From a virus: a stretch of DNA of 64,000 nucleotides. The position numbers were made by a program, and so were the translations under genes. Positions 3,478-13,195 of the stretch are shown here, in pieces (position 1 is the first letter of the stretch; every line of letters begins with the position of its first letter). Below the pieces are notes generated by a model, which did not search any database, was not told the DNA's origin, and saw nothing but the letters and a program-made list of their open reading frames with translations. The DNA lies in the IMG/VR virus record IMGVR_UViG_3300044634_002329, positions 1-64,000 of that record. The stretch is one strand, 5' to 3'.

Positions 3478-3598
3478 ACTCTTTCCAGTGATAAATATTC
3501 AACTCTTCCATATGCTTTAGGTCTGCAATAGTAAGACCTTCCGGTATGCCATCATTTTCTTGCATTACACGGTTATAAAGTTCTTTTACTCTTCCCAT
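3434..3598 (-). CDS. Small hypothetical protein, 54 aa
   Basis: A 54-residue frame starting MGRVKELYNRVMQENDGIPE with LTIADLKHMEELN in the middle. It overlaps the 3' end of the upstream regulator gene by 13 nt. The regular amphipathic helices make it a plausible gene, although its C-terminal 15 residues share DNA with the next frame. Function unknown. Confidence 0.45.
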   Translation of the reverse strand: MGRVKELYNRVMQENDGIPEGLTIADLKHMEELNIYHWKEYERERERKEQSDSK

Positions 3599-4020
3599 AA
3601 TTTAATATACTTTTCAAGCATGTGCTTAATTGTTGTTCTGATATCATCATGACCTAAAACATCTCTTATGGTTTTGAGTTTTCTACCAAGCTTATCATCA
3701 AAGTGAAGAATAACGGTATGTTTTCTATGAATTTTCTTATCCTTGACTGTATTAAAATCAAATGGGAACATTTGAGCATATACATACACGTTTTGTTGGT
3801 ATAATTTATCATCTTTGAACCGAATAGGTAATCTTTTAGCATAAGTAATTGTAGATCTTTTCATTCCAGTTAGTTTATCTACTGTATGTTCAGAGAGATT
3901 AAATTTATGACATAAAATGCCAAGTAAATAACTTCTTTGATCAACTAGATATCTTTTTCTAGATTTAAAATCTAAAGCCACTAGAGCTTCAATCACATCT
4001 TCTTTAGTATAATCCTCCAT
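3586..4020 (-). CDS. Putative DNA-binding regulator, 144 aa
   Basis: Residues about 35-65 (HKFNLSEHTVDKLTGMKRST) read like a helix-turn-helix: a helix, a short turn, then a recognition helix ending in KR. The C-terminal third (VILHFDDKLGRKLKTIRDVL) has the beta-strand plus two-helix pattern of ribbon-helix-helix proteins. It is likely a transcription regulator. It is the first gene after a hairpin terminator at 4029..4056, so it starts a new transcription unit. Start ATG 4020. No close family is named with confidence. Confidence 0.55.
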   Translation of the reverse strand: MEDYTKEDVIEALVALDFKSRKRYLVDQRSYLLGILCHKFNLSEHTVDKLTGMKRSTITYAKRLPIRFKDDKLYQQNVYVYAQMFPFDFNTVKDKKIHRKHTVILHFDDKLGRKLKTIRDVLGHDDIRTTIKHMLEKYIKLWEE

Positions 4021-4028
4021 AAGACATT

Positions 4029-4056
4029 AAAAGGGCCCGTGAGAGCCCTATTTTTA
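4029..4056 (-). terminator. Hairpin terminator after the VWA gene
   Basis: On the minus strand, AGGGC and GCCCT pair around an 8-nt loop and are followed by a T run. The hairpin sits directly past the stop of the VWA gene and before the regulator gene. Confidence 0.6.
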
Positions 4057-5418
4057 GTTTATAATCTCTTCACCAGATTCAGAATAAGCAACAACATTGT
4101 TATCATAATCAACATGAACTTGTTTACCATGAGTAGCAATACAAAGATTTTTCAACTGGTTGTTTTGTTCCATAAGACAGATTGCATTTACTTTGTAAGG
4201 AAACTTATCTGAATCAATAGAATCTTCTCCATCATTGATTATTAAAATCTCTGGTTTTTCTTCAGACAAATCAATATCTAAGTTATGAAGTGTTTTCTTT
4301 TTGATATCTGCAGCTACCTTTTCAACCATAGCACCAACTCTAGTTGTACCACCATCTGGATCATTAGAAAATGTTTGCCAGAATTTTAGTACAGTTTCTC
4401 TATCATGAATATGTTGAAAATGCATTTGATCAGGACTACATACAAAATAACTAAAGAAAACTTCAGCTTCTCCTCTCATAACATATTTAAATCTGTCAAT
4501 AAGAATAGCATTAACCCAATCTTGTTTTTCTTGTTCATCCATACTTCCAGAAAAGTCTAACAAAATAATAATCTTTTGCTTTTGTTCTTTTCTATCCACT
4601 GGTACATTGACAACAAGATCTTTAGTCAAAAGCTTGACATCAAAATTAGGAAATAATTTCTGATATAGATCAATATTTGCTATTTGAGCATAATCTCTCA
4701 TCATCTTTTTTGCATAGATGTCAGAATTACTAACTATTTTTTCATCAATTTCCTTTTCAACTTTGAATTGAGAACCTAACTCTCCAATAATAGAAATGTT
4801 GTTCATGATGGACATTTTTCTATTTTTACTGTGTTCATTAAGTTCTAGTTGTTCATTGATACTAGGATCCATGTACATTTCTCTGTCAAAATTTAATTGA
4901 GCTTTTTGAATCATTTCTTGATCAACATCATCAGAATCTTCTCTGTCCTGTTTCTCAGCTTCTCTAGACATTTGCTTATAAATAGCAATAGCTTGATCTA
5001 AAGGAGTAAATCCAGGAATAAAAGTCTCATAAATTGAATCATACAATGCTTTTTTAGCAGACAATTGTTCTTTTACATCATCAGCAAGATTCTCAAAGTC
5101 TGCATATTCATCTATAAAATAATTCTTGTCACCAATCATTTTAAAGTAGCATACTCTTGCAAGTTCTTTGATCTGATCTACAGCACTTTGTCTCCAGATA
5201 TTAGCTTTAGATTCAATATCTCTTTTACTAGGTGTTGTATAGTTTTCTGGATCTCTAACAATTAAATCATCATCATTCTCCAAAGGGTCATTAAAATATG
5301 AACCCCAATAATCCCAAGAACCTCCATAAGAATAACTACTATAGCCCTTTTTAGAGCCATAGTAGTTTGTTTTCTTACTAGAGGAACGTCCTTTACCATA
5401 TGAACTGTATCCAATCAT
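4054..5418 (-). CDS. VWA-domain protein with complete MIDAS
   Basis: A 454-residue protein. Residues 1-45 are a Tyr/Gly/Ser-rich low-complexity segment and residues 60-270 are mostly helical. The C-terminal VWA domain has a full metal-ion-dependent adhesion site: DFSGS at 288-292, GGTTR near 356-360 and INDGED with Asp396. Proteins of this type partner with MoxR-family AAA+ ATPases. The upstream gene, 2 nt away, is such an ATPase, so the two very likely form one complex that remodels or activates a target. Start ATG 5418. The target cannot be read from sequence. A VWA with an intact MIDAS is unusual cargo for this phage group as far as I know. Confidence 0.85.
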   Translation of the reverse strand: MIGYSSYGKGRSSSKKTNYYGSKKGYSSYSYGGSWDYWGSYFNDPLENDDDLIVRDPENYTTPSKRDIESKANIWRQSAVDQIKELARVCYFKMIGDKNYFIDEYADFENLADDVKEQLSAKKALYDSIYETFIPGFTPLDQAIAIYKQMSREAEKQDREDSDDVDQEMIQKAQLNFDREMYMDPSINEQLELNEHSKNRKMSIMNNISIIGELGSQFKVEKEIDEKIVSNSDIYAKKMMRDYAQIANIDLYQKLFPNFDVKLLTKDLVVNVPVDRKEQKQKIIILLDFSGSMDEQEKQDWVNAILIDRFKYVMRGEAEVFFSYFVCSPDQMHFQHIHDRETVLKFWQTFSNDPDGGTTRVGAMVEKVAADIKKKTLHNLDIDLSEEKPEILIINDGEDSIDSDKFPYKVNAICLMEQNNQLKNLCIATHGKQVHVDYDNNVVAYSESGEEIIN

Positions 5419-5420
5419 AA

Positions 5421-6473
5421 TTAATCATTAATCATTGTTGTAGCAATCATTGCTTTTTTAGCTAAAGCTTTAAATCTTCCATCATGTTCATTTAACAATC
5501 TTGTGTGATTATCAATTAAATCATCTGAAACTTTCAAAGACTTAACTTTTTTAAGCATGTTTTCATACTCAACCAAAGTTTCATTAAAACTTGTAAGTTC
5601 TGTTTGATTACTCAAAGGATTCAAGTCAAGCAACTGATAGTGATCTTGCATTAATCCTGCAAGGTTTCTCAATGTTGCTGCAGCTTCATACTTCTTCAAA
5701 CCTTCTGCTACCAAACTTGGTTTCTTTGCAAATTCTGCAATGAATCCCAAAGATTCAGGACCACATTTATCAAATACAGTGTATGCAGTAATTGCAACAC
5801 GTGGACTGATAACAATACCATTCTTTGCATACTCTTGCAAAATGAATGGAATTACTGGGTCAATTTCACCAAATCTTTCAGTTAGCAATTTGTTGTAAGC
5901 AATATCAGTATAGTTATCCCATACCACATTCAACTCCAATGGGAATCTTTCCATCAAAGCTTTCAAAGACATGTTCTTAGAGAACTCATCTCTTGTACGG
6001 TTAGTACAACAAACAATGAACTTTGTTTGAATTGGGAAAACTTGTGTACCATTTCTGAATACTCCAGAAGACAAGATATCCTTCAACTGCTCCAAGATGA
6101 AATCTGGTGCATCAAACATCTCTTCAAAGATAACATACTCATGATTCATGAAGCTGTTTTCTACAAGATACTCAATCTTACCAGTTTGATTAAATGTTGG
6201 AATATCCAAACCACCAAATAAACGGTCAGTAGTCATACCAGTACCCATAGTAATTACATAAGGGTTGATACCATTCTCTGTAAAGAAAGACATGGTCATT
6301 TCTGATTTACCATGTCCACCAGGACCATAAAGTACAATGTTTTTTTCAGTTGCCAAGCCAATTTCTAAAATCTGTGCTGTCTTTTCCATGAATACAAAAC
6401 TTTCCATTGCTGGAGTTGTAGCATTGGCAAAAAATTCATTGTTCTCTGTTGATTTTTGTGTTCCTTTTTCCAT
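5421..6473 (-). CDS. MoxR-like AAA+ ATPase
   Basis: A 350-residue AAA+ protein with Walker A GPGGHGKS (50-57), Walker B YVIFEEMFDA (Glu117-Glu118) and sensor 1 CCTNRT (Asn158). A likely arginine finger is in MERFPLE (Arg176). The size and motif spacing fit MoxR/RavA-like ATPases, which act as chaperone-like machines with VWA partners. It is followed after 2 nt by a VWA-MIDAS gene, the classic arrangement. Walker B has Glu-Glu in place of the usual Asp-Glu, as in several MoxR relatives. An alternative is a CbbQ/NorQ-type ATPase, which also pairs with a VWA protein. Confidence 0.85.
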   Translation of the reverse strand: MEKGTQKSTENNEFFANATTPAMESFVFMEKTAQILEIGLATEKNIVLYGPGGHGKSEMTMSFFTENGINPYVITMGTGMTTDRLFGGLDIPTFNQTGKIEYLVENSFMNHEYVIFEEMFDAPDFILEQLKDILSSGVFRNGTQVFPIQTKFIVCCTNRTRDEFSKNMSLKALMERFPLELNVVWDNYTDIAYNKLLTERFGEIDPVIPFILQEYAKNGIVISPRVAITAYTVFDKCGPESLGFIAEFAKKPSLVAEGLKKYEAAATLRNLAGLMQDHYQLLDLNPLSNQTELTSFNETLVEYENMLKKVKSLKVSDDLIDNHTRLLNEHDGRFKALAKKAMIATTMIND

Positions 6474-6533: not shown

Positions 6534-6887
6534 TTATTCTTCAGACTCTCCTTCTTCAGGATTTATTTTTCTTTTCAACTCTTCTAGTAAATTTTTTAAC
6601 CCACCATTGTTCATTTCAGATGCAACTTTATTTGCTCCTGCATGTGCTCCATATTGAAACATCATGTAAACAAGTTCATTTGCATGTAAAGCTCCTTTAC
6701 TTATGTTTACAAAAGCATCAGTATGAGTTTCACAATTTTCATGAGATTGTTTTACAATTTCAATTAACTCATCACTTCTTTCTTCTGTGATACCTAAACA
6801 AGCATCCATTTTTGATGATTCATCATCTAAGATAAAGACACGAAGATTTGGGTTTCCTTTAGTAGAAACCTCATTGGTTGTTCCCAT
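6534..6887 (-). CDS. Conserved hypothetical protein, paralogue of 12857..13195
   Basis: A 117-residue soluble helical protein. The core LGITEERSDELIEIV and the later HANELVYMMFQYG match, in order and spacing, LGITNERAEELAKAC and HMNEVTMVFFMFH of the gene at 12857..13195, so the two are paralogues. The C-terminus is acidic (PEEGESEE). It is placed directly upstream of the MoxR-VWA pair, separated by about 60 nt of T-rich DNA. Function unknown. I recall relatives in other crAss-like phages. Confidence 0.65.
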   Translation of the reverse strand: MGTTNEVSTKGNPNLRVFILDDESSKMDACLGITEERSDELIEIVKQSHENCETHTDAFVNISKGALHANELVYMMFQYGAHAGANKVASEMNNGGLKNLLEELKRKINPEEGESEE

Positions 6888-6942
6888 AATATTTGGATTT
6901 AAATAAATAATTACAGCTTTTCAGCTTATAAATTATATACAA

Positions 6943-7203
6943 TTAAATACTGAATTCTTCTACTTCAGTATTTGTTATTACTTCTTTTACTATTTCAACA
7001 GGTTTAAATCTATCTGAATCATAAAATTCATATGGAAATGAATCTTCTCCAATTTGTACTTCTTTTAATAATACTCCCATTTTATTACCTTGTATAGCCA
7101 TTCTGACTAATCTTACAACAGTATATTCTTTACCTTCAATGATCCATTGATCACTTGGTATTTCTTTAGGTTTATTACTAGAATTAATACAAACTACTTT
7201 CAT
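6943..7203 (-). CDS. Small beta-rich protein, 86 aa
   Basis: An 86-residue protein starting MKVVCINSSNKPKEIPSDQW, then EGKEYTVVRLVRMAIQGNKM. This strand-rich pattern with a central GKEYTV is common in short phage proteins of unknown function. Its start overlaps the stop of the ClpS-like gene by 4 nt, so it is probably translationally coupled to it. Confidence 0.6.
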   Translation of the reverse strand: MKVVCINSSNKPKEIPSDQWIIEGKEYTVVRLVRMAIQGNKMGVLLKEVQIGEDSFPYEFYDSDRFKPVEIVKEVITNTEVEEFSI

Positions 7204-7467: not shown

Positions 7468-7965
7468 TTAAACAGTACCAACAATAATTTTGTCTCCAAG
7501 ATCATTCATTGATTGAACTATGTCTTTAAAGGTTTTACCATTAGCATCTTCATAGTTAGTATAAGCTTTAAAATAACCTTGTTCTAATAATTTAGTAATT
7601 TTTTGTCTTATATTAGACATGTAGTTTTGATATGGTGGTTCTAATGTACTAATATCATACAATGCAGAAGCTGTTTTAGCTAAGAATAAGTTAATACCAG
7701 TATTAAAATCATCTTTGATAAATATTTTTTTATTATAATCATCAAACATTTCAATTAAACTACTTAATGTATTCATGTCAGCATTAGCAAATGCAGTCAT
7801 AGGACCATCAATATAACCTTCTAACCATGGTTGCCAATTTTCAAGATCCTGTTTAAGTTTGTACTTGTATCTTGAATCAATTTTCAAATCATCAATATTG
7901 TAAAGAGCACTAGATAATTTTACCAATGCTCTTACTAATCTTACTGTATTGTTATTAATTTCCAT
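7468..7965 (-). CDS. Hypothetical helical protein, 165 aa
   Basis: A 165-residue, mainly helical, soluble protein starting MEINNNTVRLVRALVKLSSA. Two segments, LVKLSSALYNIDDL and LAKTASALYDISTL, look like an internal duplication about 85 residues apart. The start overlaps the helicase stop (TAATG junction), so the two are probably co-translated. No function recognised. Confidence 0.6.
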   Translation of the reverse strand: MEINNNTVRLVRALVKLSSALYNIDDLKIDSRYKYKLKQDLENWQPWLEGYIDGPMTAFANADMNTLSSLIEMFDDYNKKIFIKDDFNTGINLFLAKTASALYDISTLEPPYQNYMSNIRQKITKLLEQGYFKAYTNYEDANGKTFKDIVQSMNDLGDKIIVGTV

Positions 7966-9056
7966 TAATCTAATTTAATGTTATAATCCACCCAACTTAT
8001 TTTACTTCTTTGAAATCCTTCTAATGCTTTAGTTACCCATTCTTCATCTGCTGTTCCTTTGTAGCATAAGATATGTACAACTGATGTATCATCTGGATTT
8101 AATCTAAGAAGTCTACCAATCTTTTGACTAGCTTGTTTTTCATTACCATATGAATGCATAATAATACCTTGTTTTAATTCAGGAATGTTTACACCTTCAT
8201 TTAGTTGTTGTACACAAGACAGTTTTAAAATCTCACCTTTTTTGAATAAATTTAAATTAGTTTCAGATTCTGAATTTGTACTATGATAACTGTTATTACA
8301 TAATCTTTCAGCTTGTTCTTTTGTGTTGGCAAATATAATACATTTTGACCTAATGGTGTTTAATAACATTTTAGCATATTTTTCTTTACTAGGAAATGTC
8401 ATCATAGCTTTCATTCTCATGATTCTCATCATATAACCACCCTCTTTTTCTATTCTTTTTGTCCAATAATCATAATTAGCAACTTCTGAAGTATAAAAAC
8501 TTTTATTTTTAGTTTTTACTTCAACATTTTTAGCATTGCTTAATTTAAGTTCATGCACAATGATTTTATAATCATTTAAGATACTATCTTTAACTGCATT
8601 ATCTACTAAATATTGAAAAGCTATTGGACAAAATCTATAAACCATAGAATAGTTCTCAGAATACTCATTTTTAGGTGGAGTACCGGTTAAACCAATAATT
8701 TTACCATTGTATCTGTTAAGAAAATCACTGTGACTTTCAAGTAAACTGTGACATTCATCAAAATATATGATATTATAATCTTTTGGATTTAATTTGTTTA
8801 AACTACGATATGTACTAAAAGTTACAACATTCATTAAATAGAACATGTTAAACTTTTCAGCTTCATCTTTCCAAGACTGAATAATAGATTTTTTAGGAGC
8901 TACAACTAACACTTTCTTTGTTAATATATTAGGAATTAAATCCATATGTTTTAAAGCTACTAGTGTTTTACCAACACCAGTAGCTAAAGCTAAACCTGCT
9001 CTTTTCTCTTTTTTAATGGCTTTTAAAGCTTCATTATGTACTTCTTCTCTAGTCAT
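7965..9056 (-). CDS. SF2 DNA helicase
   Basis: A 363-residue compact superfamily 2 helicase. It has motif I ATGVGKT (residues 25-31), motif II DECH (near 98-101), motif III LTGTPP (near 120) and motif VI QKIGRLLRL (near 325). Only the two RecA-like domains are present, as in minimal phage UvsW/RAD3-like helicases. It probably acts in replication or recombination by remodelling branched DNA or displacing proteins. crAss-like phages commonly carry such SF2 helicases in their replication block. Start ATG 9056 overlaps the upstream stop by 8 nt. Confidence 0.85.
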   Translation of the reverse strand: MTREEVHNEALKAIKKEKRAGLALATGVGKTLVALKHMDLIPNILTKKVLVVAPKKSIIQSWKDEAEKFNMFYLMNVVTFSTYRSLNKLNPKDYNIIYFDECHSLLESHSDFLNRYNGKIIGLTGTPPKNEYSENYSMVYRFCPIAFQYLVDNAVKDSILNDYKIIVHELKLSNAKNVEVKTKNKSFYTSEVANYDYWTKRIEKEGGYMMRIMRMKAMMTFPSKEKYAKMLLNTIRSKCIIFANTKEQAERLCNNSYHSTNSESETNLNLFKKGEILKLSCVQQLNEGVNIPELKQGIIMHSYGNEKQASQKIGRLLRLNPDDTSVVHILCYKGTADEEWVTKALEGFQRSKISWVDYNIKLD

Positions 9057-12620: not shown

Positions 12621-12857
12621 CTAATCATTTCTTTGTTTGTAATCAAGCAATTTGTTAAACAAATCTTGATTAAATGTTGTAAACCATTTAAAGTTACAAC
12701 ACTTAGATCCAATTTCAACTCTACCTTCTGAATCATCAGGATGATAAGTAGATTTGATACCACCTGAAAGAACTTTGGTAGTACCATTTTCTTCTATAAC
12801 AACATCAGACTTTAAATCAAAGCCTAACACTGAATTGATGGTATAACTATCTTTCAT
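12621..12857 (-). CDS. Hypothetical protein, 78 aa
   Basis: A 78-residue protein starting MKDSYTINSVLGFDLKSDVV with beta-strand character, then SKCCNFKWFTTFNQDLFNKL. Its start shares a base with the upstream stop at 12857. Function unknown. Confidence 0.5.
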   Translation of the reverse strand: MKDSYTINSVLGFDLKSDVVIEENGTTKVLSGGIKSTYHPDDSEGRVEIGSKCCNFKWFTTFNQDLFNKLLDYKQRND

Positions 12858-13195
12858 TACTTTCCAAATAATTCTTTTAACATTCCTTCCATGCCTGATC
12901 TACCAGCTTCCATTTTCTTTAGTTCAATAATTCTATGAAACATAAAGAAAACCATAGTAACTTCATTCATGTGTTTACAATGACCAAGTATTTGTTGAAT
13001 CATGTCTGTGACTTTATTTTTTTCATTCCATGACTCACTACATGCTTTAGCCAATTCTTCTGCTCTCTCATTGGTAATACCAAGAGTTTCGTGCATTAAA
13101 TCTGTATCTTCATTGATAATACAGATTTTAAATTCTCCATCTTGAGAATAAGTTTGTTTCTTTTTTGCAAATAAAGATTTCCAGATCTTTTTCAT
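12857..13195 (-). CDS. Conserved hypothetical protein, paralogue of 6534..6887
   Basis: A 112-residue protein with a basic N-terminus (MKKIWKSLFAKKKQ) and a core LGITNERAEELAKAC, then MNEVTMVFFMFHRII and GMEGMLKELF. The same order of segments appears in the gene at 6534..6887 (LGITEERSDELIEIV, NELVYMMFQYG, GLKNLLEELK), so these are paralogues. The basic extension is unique to this copy. Function unknown. Confidence 0.65.
   Translation of the reverse strand: MKKIWKSLFAKKKQTYSQDGEFKICIINEDTDLMHETLGITNERAEELAKACSESWNEKNKVTDMIQQILGHCKHMNEVTMVFFMFHRIIELKKMEAGRSGMEGMLKELFGK

Follow-up and report, generated by a model that had tools for sequence, protein, structure and literature searches.

What would a bacterial virus gain from a MoxR-class AAA+ ATPase paired with a VWA protein, and on what would such a pair act? 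MoxR-VWA pairs are widespread, and few have known targets. The pair considered here is encoded on the minus strand of the window, the 64,000-nucleotide stretch analysed, which comes from an IMG/VR record of 119,985 bases. Judged from its genes, the virus is a bacterial virus and a distant relative of crAssphage: its matches are TerL (phrog_6681), portal, and the major head protein, which identify a divergent crAss-like phage with TerL identities of 21–25% to the named crAss-like phages listed. Bacteroidota are the usual hosts of crAss-like phages. A second group of carriers, phages of ~112 kb, has its nearest TerL relative in Leptolyngbya phage Lbo-JY46 (40% identity for the L010 TerL against PP438436.1), so some carriers may infect cyanobacteria and not Bacteroidota.

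An AAA+ ATPase and a putative VWA co-factor

The product of the first gene of the pair is, by its domains and motifs, a predicted MoxR-class AAA+ ATPase (Table 1). Its best Pfam match is bpMoxR (51.1 bits against a cut-off of 27, E 1.1e-13), AAA_5 also scores above its cut-off (33.9 bits against 22), and the sole solved structure matched by its profile in the PDB is RavA (E 1.1e-9); domain search and motif inspection both place the protein in this class. The Walker motifs, which a first-pass annotation of the sequence had read as complete, are conserved in 29 aligned relatives. Walker A reads GPGGHGKSE, with P51 the varying residue, and sensor-1 residue N158, R176 at the arginine-finger position, and S-P-R225 in the sensor-2 region vary little or not at all across the same relatives, the roles of these residues being presumably those generally known for AAA+ proteins. 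Pairwise dN/dS values are 0.05–0.19. In most ~112 kb-group loci the ATPase carries an N-terminal extension of ~100 residues that is absent from the window protein; at three loci (L004, L018, and L020) this stretch looks like separate open reading frames just 5′ of the ATPase gene.

The partner protein consists of a disordered tail (residues 1–40), a helical region, and a C-terminal VWA domain. Its single-sequence Pfam matches are weak (VWA_CoxE at E 0.005, under the cut-off). The MIDAS is complete, as annotated: D288-S290-S292, T359, and D396 show no variation across 29 relatives, and in Foldseek the predicted model (pLDDT 75; tail below 40) matches the MIDAS of MDN1 (midasin), the NorD VWA of NorQD, and ORF892 of the archaeal virus ATV (E 9.7e-7). 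With a full DxSxS-T-D set on a VWA fold beside a MoxR gene, the protein is a good candidate for a VWA/MIDAS co-factor. Pairwise dN/dS values are 0.15–0.42. The tail, in which W/Y/F, G, S, and K are abundant, keeps its character in most relatives and is missing from the L031 and L035 groups.

In NorQD a finger of the VWA partner enters the pore of the AAA+ ring; as ATP is turned over, the VWA domain rotates and a linker is stretched, so that a target, which the MIDAS may hold, is remodelled (PMC13036017). A conserved segment of the window VWA protein, residues ~218–268, directly precedes the MIDAS strand, the position at which NorD appears to have its finger as inferred from the residue numbers in that paper. 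Positions 294, 296, 358, and 400, which surround the invariant MIDAS, rank with the most variable positions in the VWA core, and this variability may reflect a diversifying recognition of ligands.

The fold relationship to NorD brings in one alternative, that the pair is a metal-insertion or enzyme-activation chaperone, similar to CobST, NorQD, or CbbQO, serving a phage or host metalloenzyme. Viral CobST pairs are proposed to boost cobalamin using host CobN (PMC8651126), and a cellular relative of the VWA protein weakly matches ViaA and cobaltochelatase models. However, no gene for CobN, ChlH, or a metalloenzyme is present in the cassette or among the immediate window neighbours scanned, and the ATPase resembles the porphyrin-biosynthesis ATPase family of phages only marginally (phrog_249, E 0.004). 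We regard this role as very unlikely.

A cassette of three genes

The ATPase gene precedes the VWA gene directly, in agreement with the annotation, and the two are 2 bp apart. The same order is found at 56 of 56 IMG/VR loci in which both genes are complete, the genes being separated or overlapping by no more than 37 nt, and at 24 of these 56 the stop and start overlap by 1 nt. Chance open reading frames are ruled out by this conserved adjacency together with purifying selection and intact motifs.

The two-gene scope of the annotation missed a third gene upstream, as well as the presence/absence pattern and the horizontal transfer described below. The cassette is taken to comprise three genes here because a homologue of this small gene lies within 800 bp upstream of the ATPase gene at 27 loci and is missing at empty sites; the homologue is farther away at 7 loci, absent nearby at 17, and cut off by the contig end at 5. 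In an iterative search the first profile, built from four sequences, already finds the upstream family of the ~112 kb group (E 0.001). The small protein has no match in Pfam, and a fold search of its helical model (pLDDT 75) against the PDB returns nothing below E 2.

At the downstream end of the cassette a hairpin followed by a T-run is predicted, which is probably an intrinsic terminator closing the cassette. At the upstream junction the 14-mer AAGCTGAAAAGCTG marks a conserved flank and occurs at the matching place both in L002, which has the cassette, and at the empty site L292, before the right-flank gene. The GC content is 31–34% in the cassette, 26–29% in the flanking genes, and ~30–31% on average in the genome; since the cassette is close to the genome average, GC content is left out as evidence.

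Table 1. Coordinates of the cassette, its motifs, its surroundings, and the inserts at related loci (window positions unless a locus is named).
Feature	Position	Strand	Basis or remark
MoxR-class AAA+ ATPase, predicted, 350 aa	5421–6473	minus	Pfam bpMoxR and AAA_5, both over cut-off
Walker A codons GPGGHGKS, residues 50–57	6303–6326	minus	invariant in 29 relatives except P51
Walker B codons hhhFEE, residues 113–118	6120–6137	minus	F116-E117-E118 invariant in 29 relatives
VWA co-factor, 454 aa	4054–5418	minus	invariant MIDAS residues; model; Foldseek
MIDAS DxSGS codons, D288–S292	4543–4557	minus	invariant in 29 relatives
MIDAS T359 codon	4342–4344	minus	invariant in 29 relatives
MIDAS D396 codon (INDGxD)	4231–4233	minus	invariant in 29 relatives
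Third cassette gene, small acidic helical "LGIT/IGV" protein, 117 aa, pI 4.7	6534–6887	minus	homologues upstream of the ATPase gene
Second copy of the small "LGIT" family, outside the cassette	12857–13195	minus	iterative profile search
Hairpin and T-run just after the VWA stop	4029–4049	minus	RNA fold −11.5 kcal/mol, z −2.8
14-mer at the upstream junction	6914–6927	minus	single occurrence in the window
Upstream flanking gene, family f100	6943–7203	minus	followed directly by f98 in L290, L291, and L292
Downstream flanking gene, family f98	3586–4020	minus	adjoins f100 in cassette-free L290, L291, and L292
Intron-like inserts, ATPase gene	L026: 9042–9997; L173: 6122–7077		
Intron-like inserts, VWA gene	L025: 12235–13197; L173: from 9213		

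Presence, absence, and intron-like inserts

Three genomes (G001, G008, and G010; loci L290–L292) with TerL ~80% identical to that of the window share with it the neighbouring helicase gene (7965–9056 in the window) and families f99, f100, and f98, and their site is empty, with no gene for the ATPase, the VWA protein, or the small protein between f100 and f98. The ATPase profile finds no homologue in 17 records with a window-clade TerL, many of which are fragments. The ATPase gene is present in 9 of 13 records of the ~112 kb group that exceed 100 kb, and in two genomes (G042 and G043) with TerL 95% identical to the query the flanking families are kept and the cassette is missing. A tblastn search of the 50,697 named phage records of INPHARED returns no relative of the ATPase or VWA protein except the distant SMV1 MoxR, and a literature search of open papers yielded no report of a MoxR-VWA pair in crAss-like phages. 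From its distribution, the cassette is accessory, gained and lost as a unit.

A conserved crAss-like AAA+ ATPase, ATP_43b, was reportedly described by Yutin in 2021. The window ATPase is probably a different protein, since tblastn of the crAss-like records finds no homologue of it and the ATPase profile has no match in crAss-like cr130_1; the cr130_1 ATPase used as query against the window's own record also gives no match, which has no bearing on the case. Membership in the crAss core is ruled out by the absence of the cassette from cr130_1, from close relatives, and from part of the ~112 kb group. The judgement of the first-pass annotation that the pair lies outside the standard crAss-like core is therefore upheld, also for the named phages searched by tblastn, and because the pair is missing from the core it is not the routine core gene set of known function that had been named as the opposing case.

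At two loci, L026 and L173, the ATPase gene is split inside the Walker A codons, between GPG and GHGKS, by inserts that encode GIY-YIG/NUMOD1 proteins; the L026 insert matches the group I intron model at E 2.9e-7, under the Rfam curated score. The VWA gene of L025 is broken in the IINDG motif, with a weaker group I intron match (E 0.0036), and that of L173 breaks off at the MIDAS motif too and is followed by a LAGLIDADG open reading frame. L173 appears to hold both the ATPase-gene and the VWA-gene inserts. Important genes are the more usual place for group-I-like introns in catalytic codons, and their presence here does not fit easily with a purely optional role.

tmRNA genes are found in many phages of the ~112 kb group (L004, L006, L007, L008, L012, L016–L018, L020, L021, L023, L026, L146, L166, L167, L170, and L173, as well as L284 and L285; ARAGORN, Rfam), often shortly downstream of the VWA gene and with related tag peptides, for example ANAQIEANMNKVFSLLGEEVAVAA. 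An annotated tmRNA is present in crAss-like cr130_1 too. The tmRNA as a part of the cassette is ruled out because the empty-site genomes G042 and G043 retain it.

Horizontal transfer and genome position

Compared with the L031 phage, the window shows identities of 80% in MCP and 60–63% in TerL, but only 48% in the ATPase and 38% in the VWA protein. The relation is reversed for the ~112 kb group, in which TerL is 31–33% identical over a partial match, but the ATPase is 65% and the VWA protein 61% identical; the MCP comparison covers the L031 phage and no complete ~112 kb-group genome. Some of the records are fragments. In the ATPase tree, a quick tree without bootstraps, the window clade lies inside a 43-row set (SH-aLRT 99) and the L031 group lies outside it. 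The reversed similarity of virion genes and cassette, together with this tree, is best explained by horizontal movement of the cassette between phage groups. The relationship of the L031 group may include ancient vertical inheritance with losses.

From the gene map, the cassette belongs to the replication-side arm, which diverges from the arm of the virion genes. In the window it is part of the minus-strand arm, with TerL, portal, and capsid in the opposite arm; in the ~112 kb group TerL is 6–9 kb away, and the divergent arm that holds the cassette continues to f23 and a gene resembling DnaB (weak Pfam match). Family f23 resembles family B DNA polymerases by eye and has no Pfam match. Position alone suggests that the cassette would be expressed early.

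These findings bear on a second alternative, a virion-assembly chaperone in which ring and VWA protein help to build or process the tail or capsid. The MoxR protein p618 of ATV, a virion component assigned to tail development, has the VWA protein p892 as a binding partner (PMC4124505); a role in virion assembly has also been proposed for MoxR-vWA of jumbo phages (PMC7824862). The presence of ATV ORF892 among the VWA fold matches, and of the SMV1 MoxR as the only viral tblastn match of the ATPase, is in keeping with such a role. Nevertheless, the genes lie in the replication-side arm and diverge from TerL and portal, phages whose TerL is 95% identical lack the cassette, and the similarity of the cassette runs counter to that of MCP and TerL, so that we consider virion assembly quite unlikely.

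A third alternative, which the patchiness and mobility of the cassette and the presence of a third gene both favour, is a phage-carried defence or exclusion module directed against competing phages, a small relative of the bacterial MoxR-vWA ternary conflict systems. The best Pfam match of the ATPase, bpMoxR, is named for the MoxR-vWA-beta-propeller ternary systems, and PADLOC gives a weak match to IetA (E 0.0013). However, the IetA match spans just 55 residues around the P-loop, the cassette contains no beta-propeller, peptidase, or recognisable effector, and the third protein is small and without a Pfam match. An exclusion module is, in our estimate, unlikely.

Proposed function

The explanation that we prefer, to which we give about an even chance of being correct, is that the accessory, transferred cassette is an ATP-driven, MIDAS-targeted remodeller for host takeover or counter-defence. 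A host-directed role is preferred to virion assembly because of the patchy presence of the cassette, its transfer between virion backgrounds, and its replication-side location. Since virus families gain and lose the cassette whole, it probably serves as an optional host-directed tool and is not a part of the particle, and such patchy gain and loss would fit an optional host-interaction function. Of the three functions offered by the annotation, the remodelling of a host complex and counter-defence fit the genomics better, whereas metal insertion gains no positive evidence. The points against the preferred explanation include the intron-like inserts in catalytic codons and the small protein, which is not adjacent to the pair in every lineage.

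Complex formation, mechanism, target, and timing are what we infer in the following scheme. The cassette would make a MoxR-class AAA+ ring and a co-translated VWA adaptor, joined here and at most related loci by the small protein, which is acidic and helical. On the model of NorQD and midasin, the VWA protein would be seated over the pore of the AAA+ hexamer, its Mg-loaded MIDAS would grip an acidic ligand of the target, and the VWA protein would pass ATP-driven rotation or pulling on to that target. The target would most likely be a host complex or a component of host defence met early in infection, which would make the cassette a means of host takeover or counter-defence. As for the small protein, it could be an adaptor or a regulator of the ring.

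A more far-reaching version is tentative and, on balance, doubtful: a mobile machine of crAss-like phages, complete in itself and used for counter-defence or host takeover, in which a small acidic adaptor and a MoxR ring would work with a VWA protein whose MIDAS rim (the four variable positions given above, around fixed metal ligands) diversifies to follow changing host targets. To our knowledge, no role of a MoxR-VWA pair on the phage side of phage-host conflict has been described earlier, and if this version is true it would be the first. Bacteria are thought to use MIDAS-guided AAA+ remodelling in MoxR-vWA conflict systems; should the pair prove to act on a host defence or host complex, the same kind of remodelling would be a phage weapon. 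A compact mobile cassette with natural close relatives that lack it also offers a small, testable model for the targets of MoxR-VWA pairs.

Comparison with known systems

MoxR-VWA pairs are already known from the archaeal viruses ATV and SMV1, from jumbo phages, and as viral CobST. The annotation had likened the window pair to cellular chaperones; by domain family and fold it is indeed of the RavA-ViaA, NorQD, and CoxDE type, but it is a member of none of them. With RavA-ViaA it shares the arrangement of ATPase and VWA protein in separate genes and the PDB match described above. Unlike that pair it is phage-borne and has a third gene, and its ATPase scores 29.5 bits against a RavA cut-off of 681, with only residues 44–205 of 350 matched. 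Membership in the RavA-ViaA family is rejected on the equivalog score and the lack of the RavA C-terminal domains. NorQ-NorD has a common two-protein design and supplies a VWA fold match inside the NorQD complex, whereas it is dedicated to iron insertion into cNOR, a phage offers no cNOR target, and the window pair has no match to NorQ-NorD at the sequence level. CobS-CobT is rejected as well, the window proteins having no Pfam or NCBIfam match to CobS or CobT and the ATPase only the phrog_249 match already given.

Cellular pairs (L120–L130 and L142; Patescibacteria, Elusimicrobia, Thermoplasmata, and others) consist of two genes in the common order, with ATPases 33–39% identical to that of the window and VWA homology over ~320 residues (26–118 bits); over the closest cellular pairs as a whole the ATPase identity is 30–41%. 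They differ in having no "LGIT" gene beside them, as judged by profile, and in forming a separate clade of the ATPase tree; Pfam finds only ordinary genes among their neighbours (glutamate dehydrogenase, TrmB, MreB). A pattern-based scan of limited sensitivity found no cellular pair in Bacteroidota. In Planctomycetes (L132–L141) proteins of ~700 residues with two tandem MoxR-like domains, shown for L132, lie beside a VWA-like gene.

Among viruses, ATV p618/p892 and SMV1 ORF588 also combine MoxR and VWA, the SMV1 MoxR being 24% identical to the window ATPase by tblastn and ATV ORF892 being a fold match of the VWA protein. Theirs are virion components assigned to tail development, in contrast to the window pair, which belongs to the replication-side arm and whose presence is not coupled to virion genes. 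The jumbo-phage pairs of group 2.2 (PMC7824862) are likewise MoxR-vWA pairs of tailed phages, but they have a metallopeptidase fused to the N-terminus of their vWA; Pfam detects no peptidase domain in the 29 VWA relatives, and tblastn of phage records shows no similarity between the jumbo-phage and window pairs. The MoxR-vWA-beta-propeller systems (bpMoxR, PF20030) have in common with the window cassette the best Pfam match and an extra component. Unlike theirs, the third component here is a small protein that models as helical and has no Pfam match, the cassette has two to three genes only, and Pfam finds no beta-propeller among the neighbours scanned. The window cassette fails the tests that define RavA-ViaA, CobST, the jumbo-phage pairs, and the beta-propeller systems, so that we file it within the MoxR-VWA kind, apart from those four systems.
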